Virus record (IMG/VR): IMGVR_UViG_3300048838_000383
Location: 1 to 26,330 of that record
DNA: 26,330 nt
Source of the DNA: a virus
Direction: 5' to 3' (one strand)
The notes beneath the pieces were generated by a model. That model ran no database searches. It saw only the letters and a list, made by a program, of their open reading frames with translations, and was not told the DNA's origin. Shown here piece by piece: positions 7,350-18,790 of the stretch. Made by a program: the position numbers and the translations under genes. Each line of letters begins with the position of its first letter. Positions within the stretch are counted from its first letter, which is position 1.

Positions 7350-7682
7350 ATGCGTTATTGCACCCTCTTGCTTGCATTACTCATCTCTGGATGCGCAAGC
7401 ATACCGGAAGGAGTGAAGGATGTGGCGACCTCTCCCGAGACTTTCGCGGTGTGTAAGACGGCTGATGTAATCACTACTGCGGTCGCGCTTAACTCGGGGA
7501 ATTTTGTCGAGGCGAATCCATTGCTCAAAGGGCTGATTGGACCACACAACATATTCCCACTCGTTGCGATATCTGTTGCGATGTACCTCATCATAAAACA
7601 TTTCAACGAGCCAAAGCTCACGCTAGCAGCAAATGCAATTACCTGCGGAGTTGCCGCGCATAATCTTATCTTACTGCACTGA
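7350..7682 (+). CDS. Small lipoprotein/membrane protein in lysis cassette
   Basis: A 110-residue protein. The N-terminus is a lipoprotein signal: basic start, hydrophobic stretch, then a lipobox ending I12-S13-G14-C15. The mature part begins with a short polar region followed by TADVITTAVALNSGNFVEANPLL-like sequence (positions ~37-60; quoted parts CKTADVITTAVALNSG and EANPLL), then two hydrophobic segments (~66-82 and ~90-109). The pattern resembles DUF5658-like small membrane proteins found in phages, but the match is from memory and weak. Its function is unknown. Its place directly before the endolysin suggests a role in lysis or superinfection exclusion. The ribosome binding site is poor and the gene may depend on translation of its neighbours. 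Confidence 0.6.
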   Translation: MRYCTLLLALLISGCASIPEGVKDVATSPETFAVCKTADVITTAVALNSGNFVEANPLLKGLIGPHNIFPLVAISVAMYLIIKHFNEPKLTLAANAITCGVAAHNLILLH

Positions 7683-7683
7683 T

Positions 7684-8145
7684 ATGACACCTAACCAAGC
7701 CGCATTCCTCGATATGATCGCGTGGTCTGAGATAGGGCCGAAATTGTTATCGATTAGCGATAACGGGTACAACGTATTAGTTGGATCGACACCGAGCAAA
7801 CCGTTGTTATTTAATTCATACGCCGAGCATCCTCGTATTCGTAATGCTGCAATGAATTCAGATGCTGCGGGTAGGTATCAATTCATGGGAAGATATTGGG
7901 AACATTACAAAGCTCAATTATCTCTTCCCGATTTTGGGCATGACTCACAAGACAAGTGGGCATTGCAATTGGTTAAAGAATGCCACGCGATGAATGCGAT
8001 AGAAGCAGGTGATCTTGAAACTGCTGTACACCTCTGTCGTAGCAGATGGGCTAGCTTCCCAGCGGCTGGGTATGGCCAACATGAGCATAAGTTTTCAAAC
8101 TTAGCTGCTGCTTATACACAAGCAGGCGGTACACTCAATGTCTGA
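7684..8145 (+). CDS. R: Endolysin, lambda R-like lytic transglycosylase
   Basis: A 153-residue protein closely matching the pattern of lambda gpR. The order is AFLDMIAWSE with the catalytic Glu at residue 16, then NGYNVLVG, a P-L-L-F-x-S/Y-x-x-H-P segment, DAAGRYQFMGRYWEHY (residues ~58-75), SQDKWALQLVKE, and AGYGQHEHKF before the end. Lambda R cleaves the MurNAc-GlcNAc glycan bond, forming the 1,6-anhydro product. There is no signal peptide or SAR anchor, so release needs a canonical holin. ATG 7684 lies one base after the previous stop and gives the usual lambda R length. An in-frame upstream extension was rejected because homologous sequence starts here. The next gene begins 8 bases before this stop. 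Confidence 0.93.
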   Translation: MTPNQAAFLDMIAWSEIGPKLLSISDNGYNVLVGSTPSKPLLFNSYAEHPRIRNAAMNSDAAGRYQFMGRYWEHYKAQLSLPDFGHDSQDKWALQLVKECHAMNAIEAGDLETAVHLCRSRWASFPAAGYGQHEHKFSNLAAAYTQAGGTLNV

Positions 8146-8712: not shown

Positions 8713-9289
8713 GCAGCGCGGGATTATCTCTCAGGTATATCTCTATGGTGCCGTTGTGCTGGCAATCATCATTGCAGCTACCGCAGGGATCGCTGCTTGG
8801 CACTCGTTCATCAAGTCAATCGACAAGGCCGGCTACGACCGCGGCGTTGCCGAGACTCAGGCCGCATACAAGGAACGTGACAACACGCAATTGCAAGCCG
8901 TGGTGGCCGCTCAAAAGGCGGCTGAGGTAAAGGCTAGAGCGGCGGAAGACAAGGCCGCCACGGCTCAATCTGAAGCGCTGACGGCATACAAGAAAGGAAT
9001 CACCGATGGTAAAAATAAATTGGCTGCTTTTATTTCTGCTACTCCTCGGCTGCGCGACCCCTCCGGTAGCAGTGGAGCCTGCACCGCCGGCAGTGGTGGA
9101 GCTACAACGGCCACGACTACCGCCGATCCCGGAAGAGCTGATGAACAAGACGGGGGAGGAAGACTTCTTAGTGAAGCTGCAAGCGTTTTTCTCATCTCAG
9201 AAGCGGTCAGAGCAAATGCAGTTATTACCAAGCTCAACCTTGCCCGCGAAGTGATACTAACTGATCATCAGGTATGTGACGTGCCTTAG
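8705..9289 (+). CDS. Rz: i-spanin (Rz-like)
   Basis: A 194-residue protein overlapping the holin stop. It has a short cytoplasmic start, one membrane anchor (residues ~10-31, VYLYGAVVLAIIIAATAGIA), then a long periplasmic Ala/Lys/Glu/Gln-rich helix (~45-105) as in Rz proteins. A Gly/Ser/Thr-rich region (~118-145) follows, caused by overlap with the Rz1 frame. The last ~35 residues (SEAVRANAVITKLNLAREVI) form another helix with a closing Cys. i-spanins pair with the outer-membrane Rz1 to fuse the two membranes in the last lysis step. The 3' end overlaps the antisense HNH gene by 56 bases. A second, similar C-terminal end is found at 9935-10039, so this end may have been brought in by the HNH element. 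Confidence 0.85.
   Translation: MNKQRGIISQVYLYGAVVLAIIIAATAGIAAWHSFIKSIDKAGYDRGVAETQAAYKERDNTQLQAVVAAQKAAEVKARAAEDKAATAQSEALTAYKKGITDGKNKLAAFISATPRLRDPSGSSGACTAGSGGATTATTTADPGRADEQDGGGRLLSEAASVFLISEAVRANAVITKLNLAREVILTDHQVCDVP
9006..9254 (+). CDS. Rz1: o-spanin lipoprotein (Rz1-like), nested in Rz
   Basis: An 82-residue product in another frame, entirely inside the Rz gene. It has a signal peptide (MVKINWLLLFLLLLGC) with lipobox L13-L14-G15-C16. The mature protein is Pro-rich (PPVAVEPAPPAVVEL, PRLPPIPEEL), which is the hallmark of Rz1-type outer-membrane spanins. The nested arrangement is the classical lambda Rz/Rz1 design. The start has an upstream AAAGGAATC site about 6 bases before ATG. 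Its stop lies just before the region where the HNH gene joins, so the o-spanin is complete. Confidence 0.87.
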   Translation: MVKINWLLLFLLLLGCATPPVAVEPAPPAVVELQRPRLPPIPEELMNKTGEEDFLVKLQAFFSSQKRSEQMQLLPSSTLPAK

Positions 9290-9908
9290 GTCGTTTGGCC
9301 CATTTTTTGTAGGAAATCGCCTGCTCTACTGTAAAGCCGTTTCTCAGCCGTCGATATAAGTGAAAATAATTCATACCAATTTGCGTCGCTAGTTCAGATA
9401 TTGTTTTTGTCTCCCCATTGAGTACCACAAGATGATTTGTGCTTTTGTTATTTTGTTGTTCTCTCATTGTTGCCCATCTGCAATTAGCAGGTTCATAGTT
9501 TCCGTTTGTGTTTATTCGATCCAAGGATGCCCCTTTAAACGGGACCTCTCCCATGTCAAGCAGGAACTCAGAAAAAGACTGTCGCCAGCGTTCGCAGACA
9601 GAGATTCCACGTCCGCCATATCTATCATATCCAGATCTGTTTTTGTCATAGCATCTCTGAATCATAGATTGCCATCGGTGATACGTTACCGAATAGCACA
9701 TCCCATGCTTCCGAGCTGCATCTCCTATGGCTTTTGATCTAGCGCATCCGCAACTTTTTGTAGCTCCGCTTGTAAGGCTACCAGATGGTAGATCGCGGAC
9801 TTTTCCACAATCGCACAGACATCGCCACAAACGGCGACCATGTTTATCCTTCACTTTTGACATGGTCACAGTAAGCATTCCAAAACGTTTATTAATTAGA
9901 TCGGCCAT
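9234..9908 (-). CDS. HNH homing-type endonuclease
   Basis: A 224-residue protein on the opposite strand to the lysis genes. ATG 9908 (MADLINKRFGMLTV) was preferred over the upstream in-frame codons because phage HNH proteins of this group start like this. Residues ~25-55 hold a Cys-rich knuckle (CLCDCG, then SCGC). Residues ~85-145 carry the HNH core (YDRYGGRGISVCERW, ASLDRINTNGNYEPANCRW), and a C-terminal helix-turn-helix-like repeat (ISELATQIGMNYFHLYRRL) would bind DNA. Such enzymes make site-specific breaks that spread their own gene. The last ~16 residues are encoded by the antisense of the Rz 3' end, suggesting read-through into target DNA after insertion. A TATTAT box lies upstream, but no good ribosome binding site. 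Confidence 0.85.
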   Translation of the reverse strand: MADLINKRFGMLTVTMSKVKDKHGRRLWRCLCDCGKVRDLPSGSLTSGATKSCGCARSKAIGDAARKHGMCYSVTYHRWQSMIQRCYDKNRSGYDRYGGRGISVCERWRQSFSEFLLDMGEVPFKGASLDRINTNGNYEPANCRWATMREQQNNKSTNHLVVLNGETKTISELATQIGMNYFHLYRRLRNGFTVEQAISYKKWAKRPKARHIPDDQLVSLRGQG

Positions 9909-9934
9909 ATGAAAAACATAATACCACAGTTCTT

Positions 9935-10039
9935 TACAGGTACGACGCTTATATCCTCGCAAGCGAAGCCGACACTGTAGCGTTACAACTTACTGCCGCT
10001 CAGTCGAGGATCAAGAGCGACTACGAACTGTGCAAGTGA
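9935..10039 (+). pseudogene. Orphan second C-terminus of an i-spanin
   Basis: In the same reading frame number as Rz, beyond the HNH gene, lies an open stretch ending in TGA at 10037-10039. It encodes YRYDAYILASEADTVALQLT followed by AAQSRIKSDYELCK. It has no start codon of its own. It can be aligned with the last 30 residues of the intact Rz: both have a hydrophobic run, SEA, a Leu-x-x-Ala helix, and a D-x-x-x-C ending. The simplest reading is that this is the original Rz end, displaced when the HNH element arrived with a replacement end. The alternative is that it was once the continuation of Rz. The identity is only at amino-acid level. Confidence 0.55.
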
Positions 10040-10233
10040 ATAGCACCAAAGCCGGCATCATTGCTCAAGCTCCCTCCCTCTCCCTTGGGTAGTGGTGCCG
10101 GTCGGAGGCGGATGGTTGACCGCAGGAATGGGTCCTCGGTCGGCCGTTTCGGACCACTGCGAACCCGTGCAAACTCCCGTAAACCTGCGGGTAGGCAACT
10201 GTCCGGAATCTCCGGAGGGTTGCGGGTGCGGGG

Positions 10234-10264
10234 ACCAGTTATCCGGGATTTTCGGATAGCTGGT
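10234..10264 (+). other. 12-bp hairpin
   Basis: Left arm ACCAGTTATCCG (10234-10245), 7-base loop, right arm CGGATAGCTGGT (10253-10264). All 12 positions pair in rightward RNA with one U-G wobble; in leftward RNA that position is a C-A mismatch. It has no T-run after it, so it is not a simple intrinsic terminator. Confidence 0.7.
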
Positions 10265-10298
10265 GACAAGGACCTGTCCGCTGGCCGAGTCGATGTTA

Positions 10299-10339
10299 AA
10301 GCGATCTTTAATTGCAGGCCTCGGCATTAAAGACCGCTT
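10299..10339 (-). other. 14-bp hairpin
   Basis: Left arm AAGCGATCTTTAAT (10299-10312), 13-base loop, right arm ATTAAAGACCGCTT (10326-10339). In leftward RNA all 14 positions pair with one G-U wobble; in rightward RNA that position is an A-C mismatch. No T-run follows closely. Confidence 0.7.
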
Positions 10340-10595
10340 GCATTGGGTTCACCGCCATGCGGGTTACCAGTCGTGTCCAGAGCTGGTCGACGACGACCCG
10401 AGTAGCAGGCTCTTACCGCAGGGGGCTCGCCCGTACCAAGGTCGATATAAGGCATTGATCTGGCGCGCGATTGCTGTTGTATCGCGCAAATTCTATCGAC
10501 CGGCTATTGCCGATATCATGCTCCCTGTCCGATAGCCTGCCTGGCACGGCGCTATGGCTGATGGGCTCACGGTCGGCCAGCATGTTATTGCTGTA

Positions 10596-10698
10596 TTACT
10601 TCTCATCGTCGCCGGGTGCGCGGTCGGCCTCAATCTGCTTGATCAACCGGTCAAAATCGCTTTCAAACAGCCGGTGCACGGATCCGATCTAAACTCAT
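10596..10698 (-). pseudogene. Short early gene, apparently frameshifted
   Basis: Read leftward, ATG 10698 overlaps the previous stop as ATGA and gives MSLDRIRAPAV, then TGA after 11 codons. A neighbouring frame reads on as protein-like sequence, HRLFESDFDRLIKQIEADRA then PGDDEK, to TAA at 10596-10598. Joining the two frames near GATCCGTG would give a ~33-residue protein. The shorter alternative is a GTG-started 25-codon gene with no good ribosome binding site. A one-base indel, natural or from sequencing, is the likeliest explanation. This is the last gene-like sequence of the leftward operon. Confidence 0.4.
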
Positions 10699-10835
10699 TC
10701 TCGACGATGAACATTTTGGGCACAGTAGCAGCTTGCCGCCTGCGCCAAGCGATCCCATAGGGAGGCGGTGAGGCGGCGCTCAACGGCAAGCTCGGCATGC
10801 ACGGTGGGAATGGCGGCGTGGCGTGTGGGCGTCAT
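10695..10835 (-). CDS. Small hypothetical protein after ssb
   Basis: A 46-residue product (starts MTPTRHAAIPTVHAELAVER) with a good AGAGGA site 7 bases before the ATG, directly downstream of ssb in the leftward operon. The start was chosen for this site; an upstream in-frame start would run into ssb. The body is a predicted helix (VERRLTASLWDRLAQAAS) ending in a C-x-C. In another frame the same DNA carries a CPKC knuckle (LLLCPKCSSS), so the 3' half could also be frame-shifted. No family was recognised. Confidence 0.5.
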   Translation of the reverse strand: MTPTRHAAIPTVHAELAVERRLTASLWDRLAQAASCYCAQNVHRRE

Positions 10836-10867
10836 GGGTTGATCCTCTCGAACTCTAGGGCGCTCTT

Positions 10868-11377
10868 TCATATCCGCCGCAGCCTCTTCCAAGTGATATC
10901 GCGCTCGATCGAGCAGTCCATGAAGGGGATGTCATCCTCGAAGTCAGCGAACCCGCTATTGCCGCCACCGCCTCCGGTACTCGTTGGCGTCTTAGCTGCT
11001 TCCGACTTACGCTCTTCGCGCGGCGTGTCGCTACTGCCTTGGCGCGATCCCAGCATCTGCATTTGATTGACGACGATCTCGGTCATGTATTTTTCCTGGC
11101 CGTCCTTGTCCTGCCATTTGCGTGTCGCCATCTTGCCGCTGACGAAAACCTGTGACCCCTTGACGAGATATTCGCCGCAGATTTCACCTAACTGGTGCCA
11201 TGCGACGCAACGTATCCACTCGGTCTTCTCTTTCTTTTCACCAGAGACCTTGTCTTTCCACGATTCGCCAACAGCAATACTGAAATTTGCGCAGGCGTCT
11301 CCGTTTGGGGTATGCCGAACTTCGGGGTCGTGCCCGAGCCGGCCGATAAAGTTACATTGATTTAGGTCATTCGCCAT
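10868..11377 (-). CDS. ssb: Single-stranded DNA-binding protein
   Basis: A 169-residue protein. ATG 11377 ([20 protein letters not shown]) is placed 9 bases after GGAG; the ATG two codons earlier is too close to the site. The OB-fold covers ~1-105 with the SSB signature ([57 protein letters not shown]). A Gly-rich linker (~110-140) leads to the acidic tip [10 protein letters not shown] that normally recruits partner proteins. Unlike the bacterial form, the protein does not stop there but goes on for 17 residues rich in Arg, Lys and Trp. SSB protects single strands during phage replication and works with Bet and the exonuclease in the same operon. Confidence 0.93.
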
Positions 11378-11407
11378 CGCCATCTTCTCCAAAAATGCGT
11401 TTCTCGA

Positions 11408-11638
11408 TTAGCCGGAGCCGTAGCCGTAGCCGGAGCCGTCGCCGTCGCCGGAGCCGGAGCCGTAGCCGTAGCCGGAGCCGTCGCCGTAGCCGGAGCCGTC
11501 GCCGTAGCCGGAGCCGGAGCCGTAGCCGGAGCCGGAGCCGTCGCCGGAGCCGTAGCCGGAGCCGGAGCCGGAGCCGTAGCCGGAATCGTCAGCGCTAACC
11601 TCCGTCAGACCAAGCGTAAAGCTCCTACGCGAGACCAT
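11408..11638 (-). CDS. Gly-Ser/Tyr/Asp repeat protein
   Basis: A 76-residue product between the DUF6948-like gene and ssb, on the operon strand. Residues 1-19 (MVSRRSFTLGLTEVSADDS) are ordinary; the other 57 are 28 Gly-Ser, Gly-Tyr or Gly-Asp dipeptides plus a final Gly. ATG 11638 overlaps the end of the upstream gene, but its ribosome binding site is weak. The N-terminus is short, so this may be what is left of a longer protein whose 3' part carried the repeat. Gly-x repeat tails of this type occur in hypothetical phage proteins; no function is known to me. The opposite strand reads as Arg-Ser repeats, which is a shadow. Confidence 0.45.
   Translation of the reverse strand: MVSRRSFTLGLTEVSADDSGYGSGSGSGYGSGDGSGSGYGSGSGYGDGSGYGDGSGYGYGSGSGDGDGSGYGYGSG
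11411..11581. repeat. Hexanucleotide tandem repeat (28 units)
   Basis: 171 bases made of 6-base units. On the leftward strand they are GGCTCC, GGCTAC and GGCGAC in irregular order, differing only in positions 4-5. The reading frame is kept throughout. The array could change length by slippage or recombination without breaking the frame. Confidence 0.95.
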
Positions 11639-11984
11639 TGATCGTCTCGCGTGCGACATCGGAGCAAGGAATCGTCTCGCAGACGCCGACCAGCATGATG
11701 TCCGGCAGCACTACATCAATCTTGCCACTCTTGATTCCATTCACCGCAAGACCGGATAGCGCCACACCAGCCTTAGCTGTCCACTGCCAAAGCCTGCGCG
11801 AGTTCTTCAAATGCACAACATCGCCATCCTGAGACACCAATTCACCAGCATGGACGCCTGCAGCGTAGCAGCGGCAGATAACGTATTTGCCGACGAAAGG
11901 CGATACCTGTTTCGGTGCACTCACCGTGCCGAACATCGCCGCGATCTGCTTCAATTCACCGTATTTCATGTCATCTATATTCAT
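11625..11984 (-). CDS. DUF6948-like hypothetical protein
   Basis: A 119-residue protein with GGAG 7 bases before ATG 11984. Residues 1-30 are helical. The core (~33-110) has the pattern VICRCYAAGVHAGELVSQ, VVHLKNSRRLWQW, SGLAVNGIKSGKI and ETIPC, which I recognise as the DUF6948 family of small phage proteins. Their function is unknown. The start overlaps the stop of the tiny gene upstream (TGA/ATG), so the two are coupled. It lies between early-region genes and ssb, so a role linked to DNA metabolism is possible but not shown. Confidence 0.75.
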   Translation of the reverse strand: MNIDDMKYGELKQIAAMFGTVSAPKQVSPFVGKYVICRCYAAGVHAGELVSQDGDVVHLKNSRRLWQWTAKAGVALSGLAVNGIKSGKIDVVLPDIMLVGVCETIPCSDVARETINGLA

Positions 11985-12052
11985 TTTGAATCTCCATGGT
12001 TGATAAAAAAGTTAATCATTTCACTCTCCAATTGGTCAATCGTTCGTTTCAT
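11981..12052 (-). CDS. Tiny coupled gene (23 aa)
   Basis: Encodes MKRTIDQLESEMINFFINHG plus DSK. Its ATG overlaps the stop of the gene before it, and its TGA overlaps the ATG of the gene after it. A GGAGCG site lies ~7 bases upstream. The two tight overlaps argue that it is translated. It may be a coupling peptide with no separate function. No relatives recognised. Confidence 0.5.
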   Translation of the reverse strand: MKRTIDQLESEMINFFINHGDSK

Positions 12053-12546
12053 TCTTTCGCTCCGATTCCACTGTGGCGAAACTGACTTAATGACTCGGTT
12101 AGTATTAACGTGCCATCCGTTCCGATGTAGGAGATACGCCCGTATCTGTTCCGCTTGACGCGGGCCACTTCGACAATGCGAGGACCGGTGCGACCGATGA
12201 GCGGCCAAATAATCAGGTTGTCGCCGACCTTGGCGTACCGCTCCGTAATAGACAAGCCGCGCTGCGGCACCAGACGCACTCGCGGCTTCGTCATTGCGCT
12301 ACCTTCTCGTCGGCCATCAATCGTCAAACTCGGCGGAAACATGCGAACACCATCGACCTTGCTGTATGGGAACATGGCTTCGTATGGGTAGTTGTCTGGT
12401 AACTCGTCCTCGTACAGCCACGCCACCGGCTCACCCCTGCGCTTGCGGTCGGCTTCGATGGCGGCTCGTCCCCAAGACCGAACAAAATCAATTAGTCCAT
12501 GCTCCCAGTGCGCTGGAAGTGGCGGCAGATCGTATTCAGTCGTCAT
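12049..12546 (-). CDS. Hypothetical phage early protein
   Basis: A 165-residue protein (starts MTTEYDLPPLPAHWEHGL) with a GGAG site 7 bases before the ATG. Residues 1-40 have a Pro-rich start, then a helical part ending AAIEADRKRRGEPVAW, a pattern common at the N-terminus of phage early proteins of unknown function. The C-terminal half (~85-160) is beta-rich and basic (MTKPRVRLVPQRGLSITERY, VARVKRNRYGRISYIGTDGT) and could be a small RNA- or DNA-binding barrel. An internal MTKPR start with an upstream GAAGGTAG-like site could produce that half separately. The function is unknown. Confidence 0.7.
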   Translation of the reverse strand: MTTEYDLPPLPAHWEHGLIDFVRSWGRAAIEADRKRRGEPVAWLYEDELPDNYPYEAMFPYSKVDGVRMFPPSLTIDGRREGSAMTKPRVRLVPQRGLSITERYAKVGDNLIIWPLIGRTGPRIVEVARVKRNRYGRISYIGTDGTLILTESLSQFRHSGIGAKE

Positions 12547-12724
12547 GATCTTCTCCTTCTATTTCTTGTCGCCTAGCGACGATGAATGCCTCAATTCGCT
12601 GCGCTTTACCGTCGTAGTCGTACCAACTCATTTCCGCCAAGAAGTCATAGCATGTGCTGCACTCAACGGGCTTGCCTTCTAGGAGGCCCTTAGTTGTACC
12701 GCAGTGGATGCATCTGTCAGTCAT
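12536..12724 (-). CDS. Small zinc-ribbon protein
   Basis: A 62-residue protein with four Cys in two pairs, CIHC at residues 5-8 and CSTC at 22-25, spaced as in a zinc ribbon, followed by a helical acidic C-terminus. It overlaps the gene after it by 11 bases and the gene before it by 4 (ATGA). Such small knuckle proteins are common in phage early operons and often bind nucleic acids or host proteins. No specific function can be assigned. Confidence 0.65.
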   Translation of the reverse strand: MTDRCIHCGTTKGLLEGKPVECSTCYDFLAEMSWYDYDGKAQRIEAFIVARRQEIEGEDHDD

Positions 12725-13146
12725 TCCCCCTCCCTCTCAATGCGTCGGGCGTGGTCGATGGCTGCGCTAATCTGGTCGCTGAATGCCTCGCCGCTCATAT
12801 CGATCATTGTTTCCGCCCCGTCTGGAGCTGACAGATAGACAGTGCCAGCGCCCAGCTCCAGACTGATGCGAATCCCCCAGTTTTTAGGGAGGTCTGTTGC
12901 GGCACGGCTTATGGCCTTACCGATGCACCTGAACTCGCGAACATCATCAGCACACCATTCATCGGCAATTAACGTTGGAGCAACCTTTTCCATTTCGGAA
13001 ACAGTTCCAGATTTCATGCTTGCTCTTTCTCGTCGGTCATTCGGCGCAGCGTTCTTGGCGGTGAGGAACTGGTGCTTCTCCCAGCTTGAGAGGTCGCTGC
13101 CGACAGTCTCGGCGAGGATGCGATTTATGCGATCGGCGGGGGTCAT
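12721..13146 (-). CDS. Hypothetical early protein
   Basis: A 141-residue protein. ATG 13146 (MTPADRINRILAETVGSDLS) has a strong GGGAG site 6 bases upstream; a longer form from ATG 13194 (16 extra residues) is possible. Residues 1-45 are helical. The C-terminal half (CIGKAISRAATDLPKNWGIR, then SLELGAGTVYLSAPDG) has the look of a small alpha/beta domain common in phage hypotheticals (DLPxxWxIxISLExGAGxVxL). The function is unknown. It lies between the exonuclease and the zinc-ribbon gene in the recombination operon. Confidence 0.65.
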   Translation of the reverse strand: MTPADRINRILAETVGSDLSSWEKHQFLTAKNAAPNDRRERASMKSGTVSEMEKVAPTLIADEWCADDVREFRCIGKAISRAATDLPKNWGIRISLELGAGTVYLSAPDGAETMIDMSGEAFSDQISAAIDHARRIEREGE

Positions 13147-13228
13147 GACGTCTCCCTTGGTCGGTTTCATCATCGGGATATGTGGAGGTTTCATCTTTGC
13201 CTTTCAGTGAGTGCTGCTGGCTGGTTGG

Positions 13229-14815
13229 TCAGAGGACTTCCATGAGGTCAAGGCTGTCCAGCACACGCCTGAGCTCCCCCTCGGACATGAGGTTGATGCG
13301 CGCGATGATCTGCTCGCGCAGGATGAGTGCGCCGTCCCTTAGTGTTTGCCCCGTAGCAACAGGCAGTGGTTCTGCTGGCTTGGCCGACGATGCAACCTTG
13401 GCCTGCTGCTCTGCGGCCTGCGCCTTGATGTCTGCTGCTGCCTGCGCATCCGCTTCGGCCTTCGCCTTTGCTGTTGCCTTGGCCTCTTCCTCGACGCGGA
13501 TCCTCGCACGCTCGGCATCTAGGCGCTTCGCCTCATCTTCCTTGTGCTTGTTGATGCGCGATTCAATCAGCATCACCAGGTCGTCGGTATTCTTGAGGAC
13601 AATAGCCGCGGTGTCCGCAAACAGGAAGGTATGCTCGGACGCGAGATCGCGAAGCGTGTTGAGGTTCAGTCCGATCTTGTCGGCTATCTCGTTGGCGTCA
13701 ATCTTCGCGCGGGCAAGCTCGGTATCGACGGCGTCGCGCAGGCTTGAAATCGTCCGCTTGCTCTTCATCACTCCCGCAAAGTCCGCTTCGATCGTCGGCA
13801 TGTAGTTCTTGCCCAGGCGTTTATTGAGCGAGGCGATATGCTCCGCGAGCTTTGCCTTGCCACCCTGCAGGATCTCGACCCGAATGGAGTCCTTGCGCGC
13901 CTTAACCAACTTATCGAGTTCGAGCCGCTTGGCACGCATGCTGGCCTTAATCTCGTCCAGTGCGCGGAAGACTTCGTCAATGCTCTTGGCTTGCGACTGC
14001 GCTTGCGTTTTCACCAGATCGATGCGCTTCTCACCGTCATCGAGAAACTTCACCATCTTGTCGGCGTCGGCAAAGTCCTGATCGGTCTGAAGATCGGTAT
14101 TGATCGAGGCAATGCGCTCGGTCACGATCGTCCGCCATTGCGGGAAGTTCGACGCGGCTACCTGGCCGACGATGTCGACTTGCAGCGCGGGCAGGTCACT
14201 GATTGGCGTAGCTGTTGCGGCAGGAAGAACCTCTGGCGGAACGTAGGCGGCGAGGTCGGCGGCGAATTGCTCCCAGCCCTTGACGATCCGGGTGCGCAAT
14301 TCCAGGTCGGGCTCATACCAGAAATGCTTTTCTTCGATCAGGTTGCCGTCGGCGTCCCACTTGGAGCCCATGAAGAGACACTTCCCTGCGCCGGAGACCA
14401 TGAGCTGGTGTTCCATCTGGATCCGATACATAGCCGGAAGATCGCCGGCACACACGCATTCGCGAATCTCGTCATTGATCGACTTATGCTCGAACGCCAC
14501 ATCTTCCATGAGCGTCAGGCCGTCGAACGAGGCGGAATACTGGCCATCCACCCCGGTGACCGGCGACAGGTCCTCGCCGATGATTTCCTCTGCTACCGGG
14601 CGGGACAGCGCTTCGTAACGATGGCCGTCGTCAAACCGCTGCTGCGTTCCGGAATCGATTTCCGGAATAAAGCCAGTCGCCAACTCCCGCAGCAACTGGT
14701 TGCGCGTCTTGTACGGCGAAACACCCATCATGGCCGGTGCATCGCTGGCATTGAAGTGGCTCGCGCGGTGAGCCAGCCATTCCGGGCTTCCTTGGGTTAG
14801 GGATAGAACCTTCAT
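13229..14815 (-). CDS. YqaJ-type recombination exonuclease with long C-terminal region
   Basis: A 528-residue protein. ATG 14815 lies 7 bases after AGGGAG and overlaps the bet stop; ATG 14818 is the alternative. Residues 1-~200 form a YqaJ (lambda-exonuclease-like) nuclease: LTQGSPEWLAHR, a Ser-Asp pair near 24-25, GHRYE with E68, D98 in SFDGL, and E109-x-K111 (FEHK) form the metal site, followed by YRIQMEHQLMVSGA. It degrades one strand of duplex ends to feed Bet. The family is usually ~200-330 residues. Here ~300 further residues form helices and coiled coils (~260-470, DUF1351-like) and an Ala/Lys/Glu-rich stretch (~440-500), then a small helical end. The fusion may add an annealase- or partner-binding role. 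Confidence 0.88.
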   Translation of the reverse strand: MKVLSLTQGSPEWLAHRASHFNASDAPAMMGVSPYKTRNQLLRELATGFIPEIDSGTQQRFDDGHRYEALSRPVAEEIIGEDLSPVTGVDGQYSASFDGLTLMEDVAFEHKSINDEIRECVCAGDLPAMYRIQMEHQLMVSGAGKCLFMGSKWDADGNLIEEKHFWYEPDLELRTRIVKGWEQFAADLAAYVPPEVLPAATATPISDLPALQVDIVGQVAASNFPQWRTIVTERIASINTDLQTDQDFADADKMVKFLDDGEKRIDLVKTQAQSQAKSIDEVFRALDEIKASMRAKRLELDKLVKARKDSIRVEILQGGKAKLAEHIASLNKRLGKNYMPTIEADFAGVMKSKRTISSLRDAVDTELARAKIDANEIADKIGLNLNTLRDLASEHTFLFADTAAIVLKNTDDLVMLIESRINKHKEDEAKRLDAERARIRVEEEAKATAKAKAEADAQAAADIKAQAAEQQAKVASSAKPAEPLPVATGQTLRDGALILREQIIARINLMSEGELRRVLDSLDLMEVL

Positions 14816-15672
14816 CATTGATCTCCCTCGTGAGCCCAGGAGTCTATTTCGAGTTTCTGGTCTTCGCTCAAGATTGCCCGTTTGCTCAACCACTCCACCA
14901 TTTCGGCGGCGGTCTTCTTGCCGGATAGGACAAGGTCGCGCCACACGGCCTTGTTCGCCTCGAATTTCTCCGCGCTGTATTCTTCGAGCGCCGGCTTTTC
15001 GCTTTTCCGCTGCTGGATGATCTCGCCGGTGCTGCCATCGATGGTCTCACCATCGAAGGACTTGCCTTCCATCTCGTCGGCAGTCGGCTGAGATCCGATC
15101 TCCGGGAACGCCTTGCGCAGCGCCTGGGCCTCGGCACACTTGGCCAGTTGCCCATAGGGGCGGCGCTTCCACATGACGTTCGGCTCAATGCTCTTGGCGC
15201 TCTTGGTCGCGTAGTTCTCTTTCCACAATTCCTTGGCGGAAAACTCAACGATGATGCCGTTTTGCATCAGGCGCTTGACCGTGACCTTGCTCCACTTGGG
15301 ATAGGTGATCTGCGTCTCCCCGAGCTTCTCGGTAACGTCCTCGCCGAACTCCGGCTCGGTCACGCCGGCGTATTCGCCCGATCGCGCGGCCTGGGTGCGG
15401 TAGAGTCCGATTCCCGGCATGACCACATCGCGCATTTCCTTGATGTCCCAGCCGCTGTCATCCTTGCGTCCGGTGCTGACGGACATCGGCACGATATGCA
15501 CCGGCTTCTGCATCGGGTCCAGCCCGGACGCCTTGCAATAGCCGATCACCATCTTGATGCTCTCGTCCTTGGCTCCAGGGTAGAGCGAGCTTTTCAGCAC
15601 GCTCATCAGTTCCTGCTCGTTCATCTGGATGGACGGCAGCGCAGACTTGAACGCTACGACTTCGTTGCTCAT
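14815..15672 (-). CDS. bet: Phage recombination protein Bet (RecT/Redbeta superfamily)
   Basis: A 285-residue single-strand annealing protein with GGAGGA 5 bases before the ATG. The Bet pattern is clear: LYPGAKDESIKMVIGYCKAS (residues ~31-50), GLDPMQKPVHIVPM, a GIGLYRTQAARSGEYAG segment (~88-104), a beta region, then MWKRRPYGQLAKCAEAQALRK (quoted parts MWKRRP and QLAKCAEAQALRKAFPE) near 165-190. The C-terminal ~80 residues are variable. Bet coats single strands and anneals complementary DNA, working with the exonuclease encoded next and SSB further down. The operon order matches other phages of this type. Confidence 0.94.
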   Translation of the reverse strand: MSNEVVAFKSALPSIQMNEQELMSVLKSSLYPGAKDESIKMVIGYCKASGLDPMQKPVHIVPMSVSTGRKDDSGWDIKEMRDVVMPGIGLYRTQAARSGEYAGVTEPEFGEDVTEKLGETQITYPKWSKVTVKRLMQNGIIVEFSAKELWKENYATKSAKSIEPNVMWKRRPYGQLAKCAEAQALRKAFPEIGSQPTADEMEGKSFDGETIDGSTGEIIQQRKSEKPALEEYSAEKFEANKAVWRDLVLSGKKTAAEMVEWLSKRAILSEDQKLEIDSWAHEGDQ

Positions 15673-17210: not shown

Positions 17211-17534
17211 ATGGCCTACACAGCAGAAGAAGATCAATTTATAATCATGTACCACAACAAAGGCAAGACGTGGCAATGGATCGCTGCGATGCTTGGGCGT
17301 GACTCAGCGTATCAAGTCGAGCAGCACCATGCTGTGCTTGTTGCTCGAGCTGAAAAAAACAAGGTCAAGGTGCGTACGCCTCGCTGCTTAGTCTGCCGAG
17401 AGCGATTCGAGACTACTGACGAGACGCAATATATACATAAATATCGATTAGTCGTCCAGGTAGCAGTGGCTGTAGAGATAGTGGCAGTGAAATGGATTGG
17501 AACCCACAGCGAATATACAGGCCGAAAATTTTGA
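17211..17534 (+). CDS. SANT/Myb-like small DNA-binding protein
   Basis: A 107-residue protein starting MAYTAEEDQFIIMYHNKGKT; the ATG follows the previous stop by one base, with GGGGGA upstream. Residues ~4-45 look like a SANT/Myb- or resolvase-type HTH (W-x-x-I-A-x-x-L-G-R). A Cys pair, CLVC, occurs at ~63. Similar phage proteins usually have a second Cys pair and then stop. Here the region after TTDE changes to a hydrophobic, Val-rich run (~80-95), which looks like a frame change or replaced 3' end just before the HTH/protease gene. Confidence 0.6.
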   Translation: MAYTAEEDQFIIMYHNKGKTWQWIAAMLGRDSAYQVEQHHAVLVARAEKNKVKVRTPRCLVCRERFETTDETQYIHKYRLVVQVAVAVEIVAVKWIGTHSEYTGRKF

Positions 17535-17542
17535 GAAATGAT

Positions 17543-18790
17543 ATGGAATTTAGAGTAATTAAGAGCGAATCTCAGTATCACACGATGCTGAGCGAGGCGG
17601 AACGTCTCGTGGCTTTGGACCCGAATCTTGGGTCCAGGGAGGCTGATCGGCTCGAACTTTTGTCCGTGCTAATAGAAGATTACGAGAAGAGGAACTTCCC
17701 GTTTGAATCTCCCGACCAAATAGGAGCAATTGAATATCGGATGATGGAACAGGGCCTTCGGCAGGTCGACTTGGCGCAACTTGTAGGCAGTCGTAGCCGT
17801 GCATCGGAAATATTGTCGCGTAAGCGGCCTCTAACAGTTCCGATGATCAGGTCACTTTCAACTGGCCTGGGGATTCCTTTAGAGGTCTTGCTGTCCGAGC
17901 GTAACTCTGGACAGCACGTAAAGGGAAGCGTCTTAACCGAGGAAAAATATGATTGGGACAAATTTCCAGTCAAGGAAATGGCGCGGCGTGGTTGGATTAA
18001 TGTTCAAATCCCTTCTAGAGTAACGGCCTCTGTTAAACGGGCAGCCGAGGACAGTCTGAAGGCATTTCTTGCGACTGTATATAAGAATGTCGCATCTCCG
18101 GCGCTATTTAGGAGAACCTTTCGAGGGGACGCGTTAGACGAAAAAACCTATTACTCAACGCTTGCATGGAGTGCGCGCGTTTTGGCACGAGCGAAGGAAT
18201 CTGGTCGTCGGTACAAAAAATTTGATCCAGGTCTGCTAAACGAAGAATATTTTGTGCAGCTTACGCGCCTTAGTTGTTGGCCGGACGGTCCCAAGAGAGC
18301 AGTTGAAATGCTTGCCACAAAGGGAATTGCGCTGGTTATAGAACCAAAACTACCAAATACCTTGATAGATGGTGCTGCGATGCTGTCTGAAAGTGGCTTG
18401 CCTGTGATCGGGATGACGCTAAGATACGATCGTGTTGATTACTTTTGGTTTACATTACTCCATGAGCTTGCGCACGTTTGGAAGCATCTGAACTCTTCGG
18501 ATGAAGCATTTATTGACAGGATCGAAAACGGCTCTCCTAGTGCAATTGCGGAGAAACAAGCAAATAGGATCGCACGAGACTCACTAATTCCGCGAGCGAT
18601 CTGGAAGCGAAGCCCAGCATTCTTAAATGCTTCACGGGAGACAATCATTCGACTTGCTAATGACTTGTCTATTCACCCAGCTATCGTAGTTGGTAGGTTG
18701 CAAAAGGAAACGGAAAGATACGATTGTTTTAGGGATATGTTAGGTCAAGACACCATTCGTCCGCTATTCCCAAAGGCATCTTTTAGTTAA
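17543..18790 (+). CDS. HigA-like HTH / ImmA-IrrE metalloprotease fusion
   Basis: A 415-residue protein. ATG 17543 (MEFRVIKSESQYHTMLSEAE) matches the usual start of HigA-like antitoxin proteins; a GAG lies upstream but the site is weak. Residues ~58-105 are an XRE helix-turn-helix (MMEQGLRQVDLAQLVGSRSR). Residues ~235-370 are an ImmA/IrrE (DUF955) zinc protease with HELAH at 307-311 and a later Glu-rich helix that could supply the third ligand. Related two-domain proteins act in stress or phage-switch control by cleaving a repressor. No toxin gene is evident upstream. Its place between cro and ninB suggests an accessory gene that could replace a repressor circuit. Confidence 0.82.
   Translation: MEFRVIKSESQYHTMLSEAERLVALDPNLGSREADRLELLSVLIEDYEKRNFPFESPDQIGAIEYRMMEQGLRQVDLAQLVGSRSRASEILSRKRPLTVPMIRSLSTGLGIPLEVLLSERNSGQHVKGSVLTEEKYDWDKFPVKEMARRGWINVQIPSRVTASVKRAAEDSLKAFLATVYKNVASPALFRRTFRGDALDEKTYYSTLAWSARVLARAKESGRRYKKFDPGLLNEEYFVQLTRLSCWPDGPKRAVEMLATKGIALVIEPKLPNTLIDGAAMLSESGLPVIGMTLRYDRVDYFWFTLLHELAHVWKHLNSSDEAFIDRIENGSPSAIAEKQANRIARDSLIPRAIWKRSPAFLNASRETIIRLANDLSIHPAIVVGRLQKETERYDCFRDMLGQDTIRPLFPKASFS

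Follow-up and report, generated by a model that had tools for sequence, protein, structure and literature searches.

The window analysed here is the whole of a 26.3-kb linear IMG/VR record (26,330 nucleotides) from a tailed phage, represented by a single uncultured contig. Its tail genes are followed by an endolysin gene (7633-8145), a small gene, a holin-like DUF7940 gene, and a gene for an Rz-like spanin (Table 1). The predicted Rz protein has the makeup of an i-spanin, with an N-terminal membrane segment (hydrophobic residues at about 12 to 36) and a coiled periplasmic domain, and its terminus reads DHQVC-DVP. It is 30% identical to the annotated Rz lysis protein of Acinetobacter phage Alexa, with the C terminus matching strongly. 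In lambda Rz, a C-terminal cysteine is functionally important. An Rz1-like gene is embedded in Rz, a layout shared with L054, L057, L060, L096, Mica, and Alexa. The window pair has the parts of an embedded two-component spanin, namely an i-spanin and a predicted o-spanin lipoprotein in the +1 frame, and it probably works.

Table 1. Features at the 3' end of the spanin genes (positions in the window)
Feature	Position	Strand	Evidence
Rz-like i-spanin, complete, 194 aa	8705-9289	+	PHROG 2466 (Rz-like spanin), E=2e-5, residues 19-184
Rz1-like o-spanin, lying inside Rz in the +1 frame; proline-rich, with lipobox LLLLGC	9006-9254	+	Translation
Resident i-spanin C-terminal segment (end in use)	9167-9289	+	C-terminus profile positions 1-35, E=4.4e-4
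HNH endonuclease gene, 224 aa, pointing toward Rz/Rz1 and overlapping them	9234-9908 (from ATG)	-	PHROG 374, E=5e-71
Final 17-18 codons of HNH, opposite the Rz end on the other strand, past the homologous part of the HNH family	9234-9289	-	Shorter homologues stop earlier
HNH leader, AT-rich (34% GC)	9909-9955		GC change-point at 9954; spanin homology resumes at ~9944-9957 in both frames
Displaced, start-less 3' end of an older Rz	9944-10039	+	C-terminus profile match, E=1.4e-10 at 9956-10033
Displaced 3' end of an older Rz1, SQAKPTL and stop	9957-9980	+ (+1 frame)	Rz1-end profile, KPT-type motif, stop spacing

The HNH gene belongs to a family that is large in phages (1,063 phage records by tblastn). 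Alignment with phage homologues shows an intact DRIN-NGNYEPANCRW motif, and the protein carries the HNH family motif together with DNA-binding flanks; a comparison with Pfam gave nothing above the cut-off. Shorter homologues terminate opposite residues 201 to 208 of the window protein, which is the position of the Rz stop codon. Several longer homologues extend past these residues, where clear conservation is absent. On this alignment, the final 17 to 18 residues are an extension into antisense Rz; the first-pass annotation of this DNA had put the antisense portion at about 16 residues. Promoter and terminator scans gave no clear excess over shuffled sequences.

Beyond the HNH gene lies a second Rz-type end, DAYILASEADTVALQLTAAQSRIKSDYELCK followed by a stop codon. 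The open frame that contains it (9896-10039) has no ATG, GTG, or TTG start, and its stop (10037-10039) has the same frame number as Rz. Translation, profile match, and the missing start codon bear out the first-pass description of an Rz gene complete to 9289 and a second, start-less i-spanin-like end running to 10039 in the same frame number. An independent, complete gene ending at 10039, the counter-case raised with that description, is ruled out by the lack of a start codon in the frame.

To score such ends, we used a profile of the last ~38 residues of 11 i-spanins with the embedded layout (Alexa, Mica, MQ-4, P744, P840, and IMG/VR loci L003, L053, L054, L056, L057, and L060), with the window left out. 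Among all 1,105 six-frame segments of the window, the segment at 9896-10036 ranked first and the resident Rz second (E values in Table 1), followed by a third-best segment at E=0.64. The displaced tail alone, a very short query, had no match in PHROGs; in other sequences it was looked for by DNA motif scans.

The embedded Rz1 gene and its displaced end are absent from the first-pass annotation. In the +1 frame, the displaced segment reads LISSQAKPTL and stops 59 nt ahead of the Rz stop, a spacing equal to that in L057. In most relatives the Rz1 stop precedes that of Rz by 20 to 89 nt (by 143 nt in L003), and the protein often ends in KPAEPTK or SPAKPTR. A KPT-type end with suitable spacing was found once behind 1,909 stops. 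In a six-frame search of the window with an Rz1-end profile, the displaced +1-frame segment ranks second, at an E value (0.45) that is not significant alone. Because the remnant keeps an Rz1 end in the +1 frame at a family-typical stop spacing, the ends of both overlapping genes appear to be duplicated. From these features, the remnant is almost certainly the 3' end of both genes, and we have little doubt that the duplicated dual-frame end is real.

The two Rz ends resemble each other position for position. After its FLISE segment, the resident tail, AVRANAVITKLNLAREVILTDHQVC, pairs gaplessly with the displaced ASEADTVALQLTAAQSRIKSDYELC, with the distal cysteine in register. Over 25 gapless codons up to the last cysteine, no other of 23,048 six-frame windows matches the displaced tail as well as the resident tail does, with a score of 38 compared to 25 for the next (shuffle p ~1e-5 or less). 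With the displaced end set aside, the resident tail is also the best match in the window for the tails of Alexa, L057, and L060. Against the family profile, the displaced tail scores 36.9 bits and the resident tail alone 3.0, a value reached by ~4% of shuffles; the likeness of the ends is thus carried strongly by their pairwise match and not by the profile score of the resident tail. The better fit of the displaced tail to the family would be expected if it was the long-established end. A D-x-x-x-C motif had been noted in both ends and is real, but the "SEA" that they were also said to share is about three residues out of register, the gapless match being AVRAN...DHQVC with ASEAD...DYELC. At the DNA level, only 28 of 75 positions are identical, so the two ends come from separate lineages as old homologues rather than from a recent tandem duplication. 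Two versions of the 3' end of the target gene therefore flank the endonuclease ORF.

This likeness bears on the simplest account, in which the HNH gene split an Rz that was once longer, so that Rz now reads by chance into the antisense strand of HNH and ends there. The overlap of the HNH gene and the Rz end on opposite strands is what such an insertion would give. However, the resident tail is homologous to the family and displaced tails up to and including the last cysteine, and relatives with the family tail bear one tail each, not two in tandem. We consider simple insertion very improbable.

HNH genes are frequent residents of phage introns. A group I or II intron with an antisense HNH gene, spliced to give an Rz ending in SDYELCK, would have parallels in the ICP1 examples described in PMC10448857. 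There is no Rfam intron match in the window at either the gathering or a relaxed threshold, however, the HNH gene is antisense, and Rz already has a complete, family-like end upstream, which together effectively refute an intron.

A two-breakpoint GC model identifies a low-GC block with maximum-likelihood limits at 9160 and 9954. The right limit has a range of 9922-10076 within 2 log units and matches the resumption of spanin homology; the left limit is less well fixed (9116-9367). Read together, composition and homology place the right boundary of the inserted DNA within, or at the end of, the HNH leader. The resident tail has a GC content of ~47%, compared to 57% in the Rz body. This drop of 0.10 lies at the edge of the range in 30 uninterrupted spanin relatives used as a control (mean body-to-tail change -0.033, sd 0.042, lowest -0.101; z ~-1.7 for the window), and GC3 shows no such drop. 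The low GC suggests a foreign origin for the HNH part, but for the resident tail it is no proof.

Between the maximum-likelihood limits lie the resident tail and HNH, and the frame of the HNH gene continues into that tail. Both observations are consistent with a strict end-swapping element, in which the HNH gene and only the Rz/Rz1 3' end (~9160-9955) homed into the border between Rz body and tail and supplied their own tail, which would have allowed both spanins to survive. Against this, GC3 runs on unbroken, and the region just before the tail (LSEAASVFLISE) shares its type with the resident tail, with no chimeric junction visible. Indeed, the nearest relatives of the Rz body bear the resident-type tail first and the other type next, so that no chimera signal is visible in Rz. 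We regard an element of this narrow kind as possible but not probable.

A different kind of join would be an assembly chimera of two metagenome phage variants, meeting near 9909-9956. The record is a single uncultured contig, and a second copy was not found. Such a join would need to land exactly between the start of an HNH gene and the point at which a second Rz end comes into alignment. Further, the GC3 of the genes at 17 to 26 kb resembles that of the left part, so that the contig as a whole shows no break at 9909-9956. A chimera is unlikely.

Relatives of the locus were sought in several collections. IMG/VR scans with Rz, HNH, tail protein, and lysozyme yielded no syntenic close relative and no empty site, INPHARED scans with the region and Rz yielded no close relative and no uninterrupted gene, and GTDB contig samples queried with the tail protein yielded no syntenic close relative. 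The closest sequences across the three reach ~44-50% for the tail protein and ~53% for lysozyme, with no locus combining Rz and synteny. An Rz profile gave no credible match over 385 genomes of one class. A wider search found the tail of the window's Rz family at 26 places in 18 of 399 genomes of one bacterial order, and two of these places are start-less orphan Rz ends in bacterial prophage loci unrelated to the window. The first (L094/L101; L101:5175-5320) lies ~660 bases past a complete but different Rz/Rz1 pair, behind a DUF1330 gene. The second (L095/L100; L100:2690-2815) comes directly after a DUF1353 gene and keeps an Rz1 end in the +1 frame, SFLQRMEQMLNDSLLKPTTSPNS followed by a stop codon. 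There is no HNH gene near either end. Orphan Rz ends can therefore also arise when cassettes are simply exchanged, which suggests that leftover spanin ends are a general scar of such events. L101 comes near to a case that had been named as telling against end swapping, HNH-less relatives with both C-terminal ends, but these prophages are unrelated to the window.

These orphan ends speak for a module exchange without homing, in which a cassette ending in Rz/Rz1, with HNH as a passenger, would have replaced an older one by illegitimate recombination at the Rz 3' end and left the last ~30 codons of the old pair behind. The GC3 of the displaced end (0.61) is also nearer to that of the SSB gene on its right (0.67) than to that of the lysis genes on its left (0.42-0.56), although a value from 31 codons is weak evidence. 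On the other side, the join lies within ~50 bases of the HNH start, which fits a boundary defined by HNH. We give this course real but less than predominant weight, and judge plain cassette exchange to be about as likely as the strict end swap. As for the end-swap proposal in the first-pass annotation, the superseded end past HNH, the HNH frame running into the Rz end, and a family-like Rz tail all stand, whereas delivery of the tail alone by homing is only a possibility, no uninterrupted relative having been found.

The reading that we favor, and think fairly probable, takes the 3' end of the overlapping spanin pair for the scar of a recombination, in which a foreign Rz/Rz1 end and an HNH gene were joined into an older end. 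The ancestor would have had an Rz ending in ASEADTVALQL...DYELCK and an Rz1 ending in SQAKPTL. DNA of another phage, with a working Rz/Rz1 3' end and a gene for a homing-type HNH endonuclease directly behind it in the opposite direction, would then have been joined into the older 3' end. Most likely, the older Rz 3' end was broken, probably through cleavage by the HNH enzyme, and then mended by donor-templated repair. On the left, joining would have relied on homology in Rz or the lysis genes; on the right, it would have taken place close to the HNH leader and with hardly any homology. Both lysis genes would thereby have stayed complete, with the older end of both staying as a start-less remnant. 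The incoming DNA may have been either an element of ~0.8 kb (9160-9955) or a piece that reached further left. The direction of replacement and the HNH enzyme as the maker of the break are both inferred, order and direction because no empty-site relative was found. The position of the join close to the HNH start, together with nuclease genes at phage exchange boundaries (PMC10448857), makes HNH cleavage a plausible driver. Confidence in this scar overlaps with that in two of the readings above, since the strict end swap is its narrow version and cassette exchange differs from it in that HNH has no role.

Known systems offer several parallels. In fungal mitochondria, mobile ORFs with a carboxy-terminal duplication occur in atp6 of Allomyces macrogynus and in atp6, atp9, cox2, and nad3 of Glomus sp.; the endonuclease ORF arrives with a foreign carboxy terminus, and the native one is left behind (PMC3630166). 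The window shares their architecture, an endonuclease ORF between a foreign end in use and a displaced native end, and this favors the strict end swap. The fungal elements, however, encode LAGLIDADG or GIY-YIG endonucleases, with parts in phase or cotranscribed with the target, and their native ends match relatives at 91-98% (PMC3630166). The window has an antisense HNH gene and two overlapping genes affected at once, its tails are only 28/75 identical in DNA, and no close relative was found against which to prove the swap.

Spanins had been said to be rarely described as homing targets, a statement that needs a caveat: in phages Shivani and phiR201, but not in T5, a GIY-YIG homing endonuclease lies between the spanin genes (PMC6139136). 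This system resembles the window in having a homing-type endonuclease gene at the C-terminal end of the i-spanin in a phage lysis region. In Shivani and phiR201, however, the insert separates overlapped i- and o-spanin genes, whereas the window keeps its embedded pair intact and carries the old ends as duplicates downstream. HEG islands and nuclease genes at the boundaries of phage genetic exchange (PMC10448857) likewise place a nuclease gene where mosaic segments meet, close to a phage gene that is essential; the available part of that paper reports no duplicated gene end, and spanins are absent from it. The L100 and L101 orphan ends also consist of a start-less Rz end (with an Rz1 end in L100) at a lysis-region boundary, but a DUF1353 or DUF1330 gene, and no HNH gene, precedes the remnant. 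Relative to the literature searched, which is no proof of absence, a two-frame rescue of overlapping genes appears to be new.

More speculatively, and on balance doubtfully, a homing element would carry as its cargo a 3' end that serves two frames, so that i-spanin and o-spanin are repaired together; it would be the first counterpart in a bacterial virus to the fungal end-swappers. If an HNH element does bring a replacement end, it could invade an essential coding gene with no need of an intron or intein and leave its host phage viable, and the C terminus of the target protein would be altered upon entry. With an embedded Rz/Rz1 pair, one swap would rewrite two proteins. This would be a concrete route by which spanin C termini turn over and lysis cassettes acquire mosaic joins at their end. 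A plain scar would also leave a searchable signature, an orphan Rz end with an Rz1 end in the +1 frame.

The DNA to the right of the remnant has features of its own. About 830 bases (10040-10867; ~59% GC) without a convincing gene separate the remnant from the antisense SSB gene, and they hold three imperfect 18-nt copies ending in CGGTCGGCC at 10128, 10561, and 10612. The antisense SSB-RecE-RecT block (10868-15672) has a GC3 of 0.67-0.81, compared to 0.42-0.56 in most genes elsewhere, which suggests a separately acquired recombination module. Tandem 6/18-nt units (TAGCCG..., ~29 hexamers) at 11409-11584 form the 3' end of an antisense ORF and encode a Gly/Ser/Tyr-rich C terminus. Between the recombination and replication genes, a plus-strand gene (17492-18790) encodes a 432-aa protein, the N-terminal half of which matches phage transcription-regulator families and the C-terminal half regulator/metallo-protease families.
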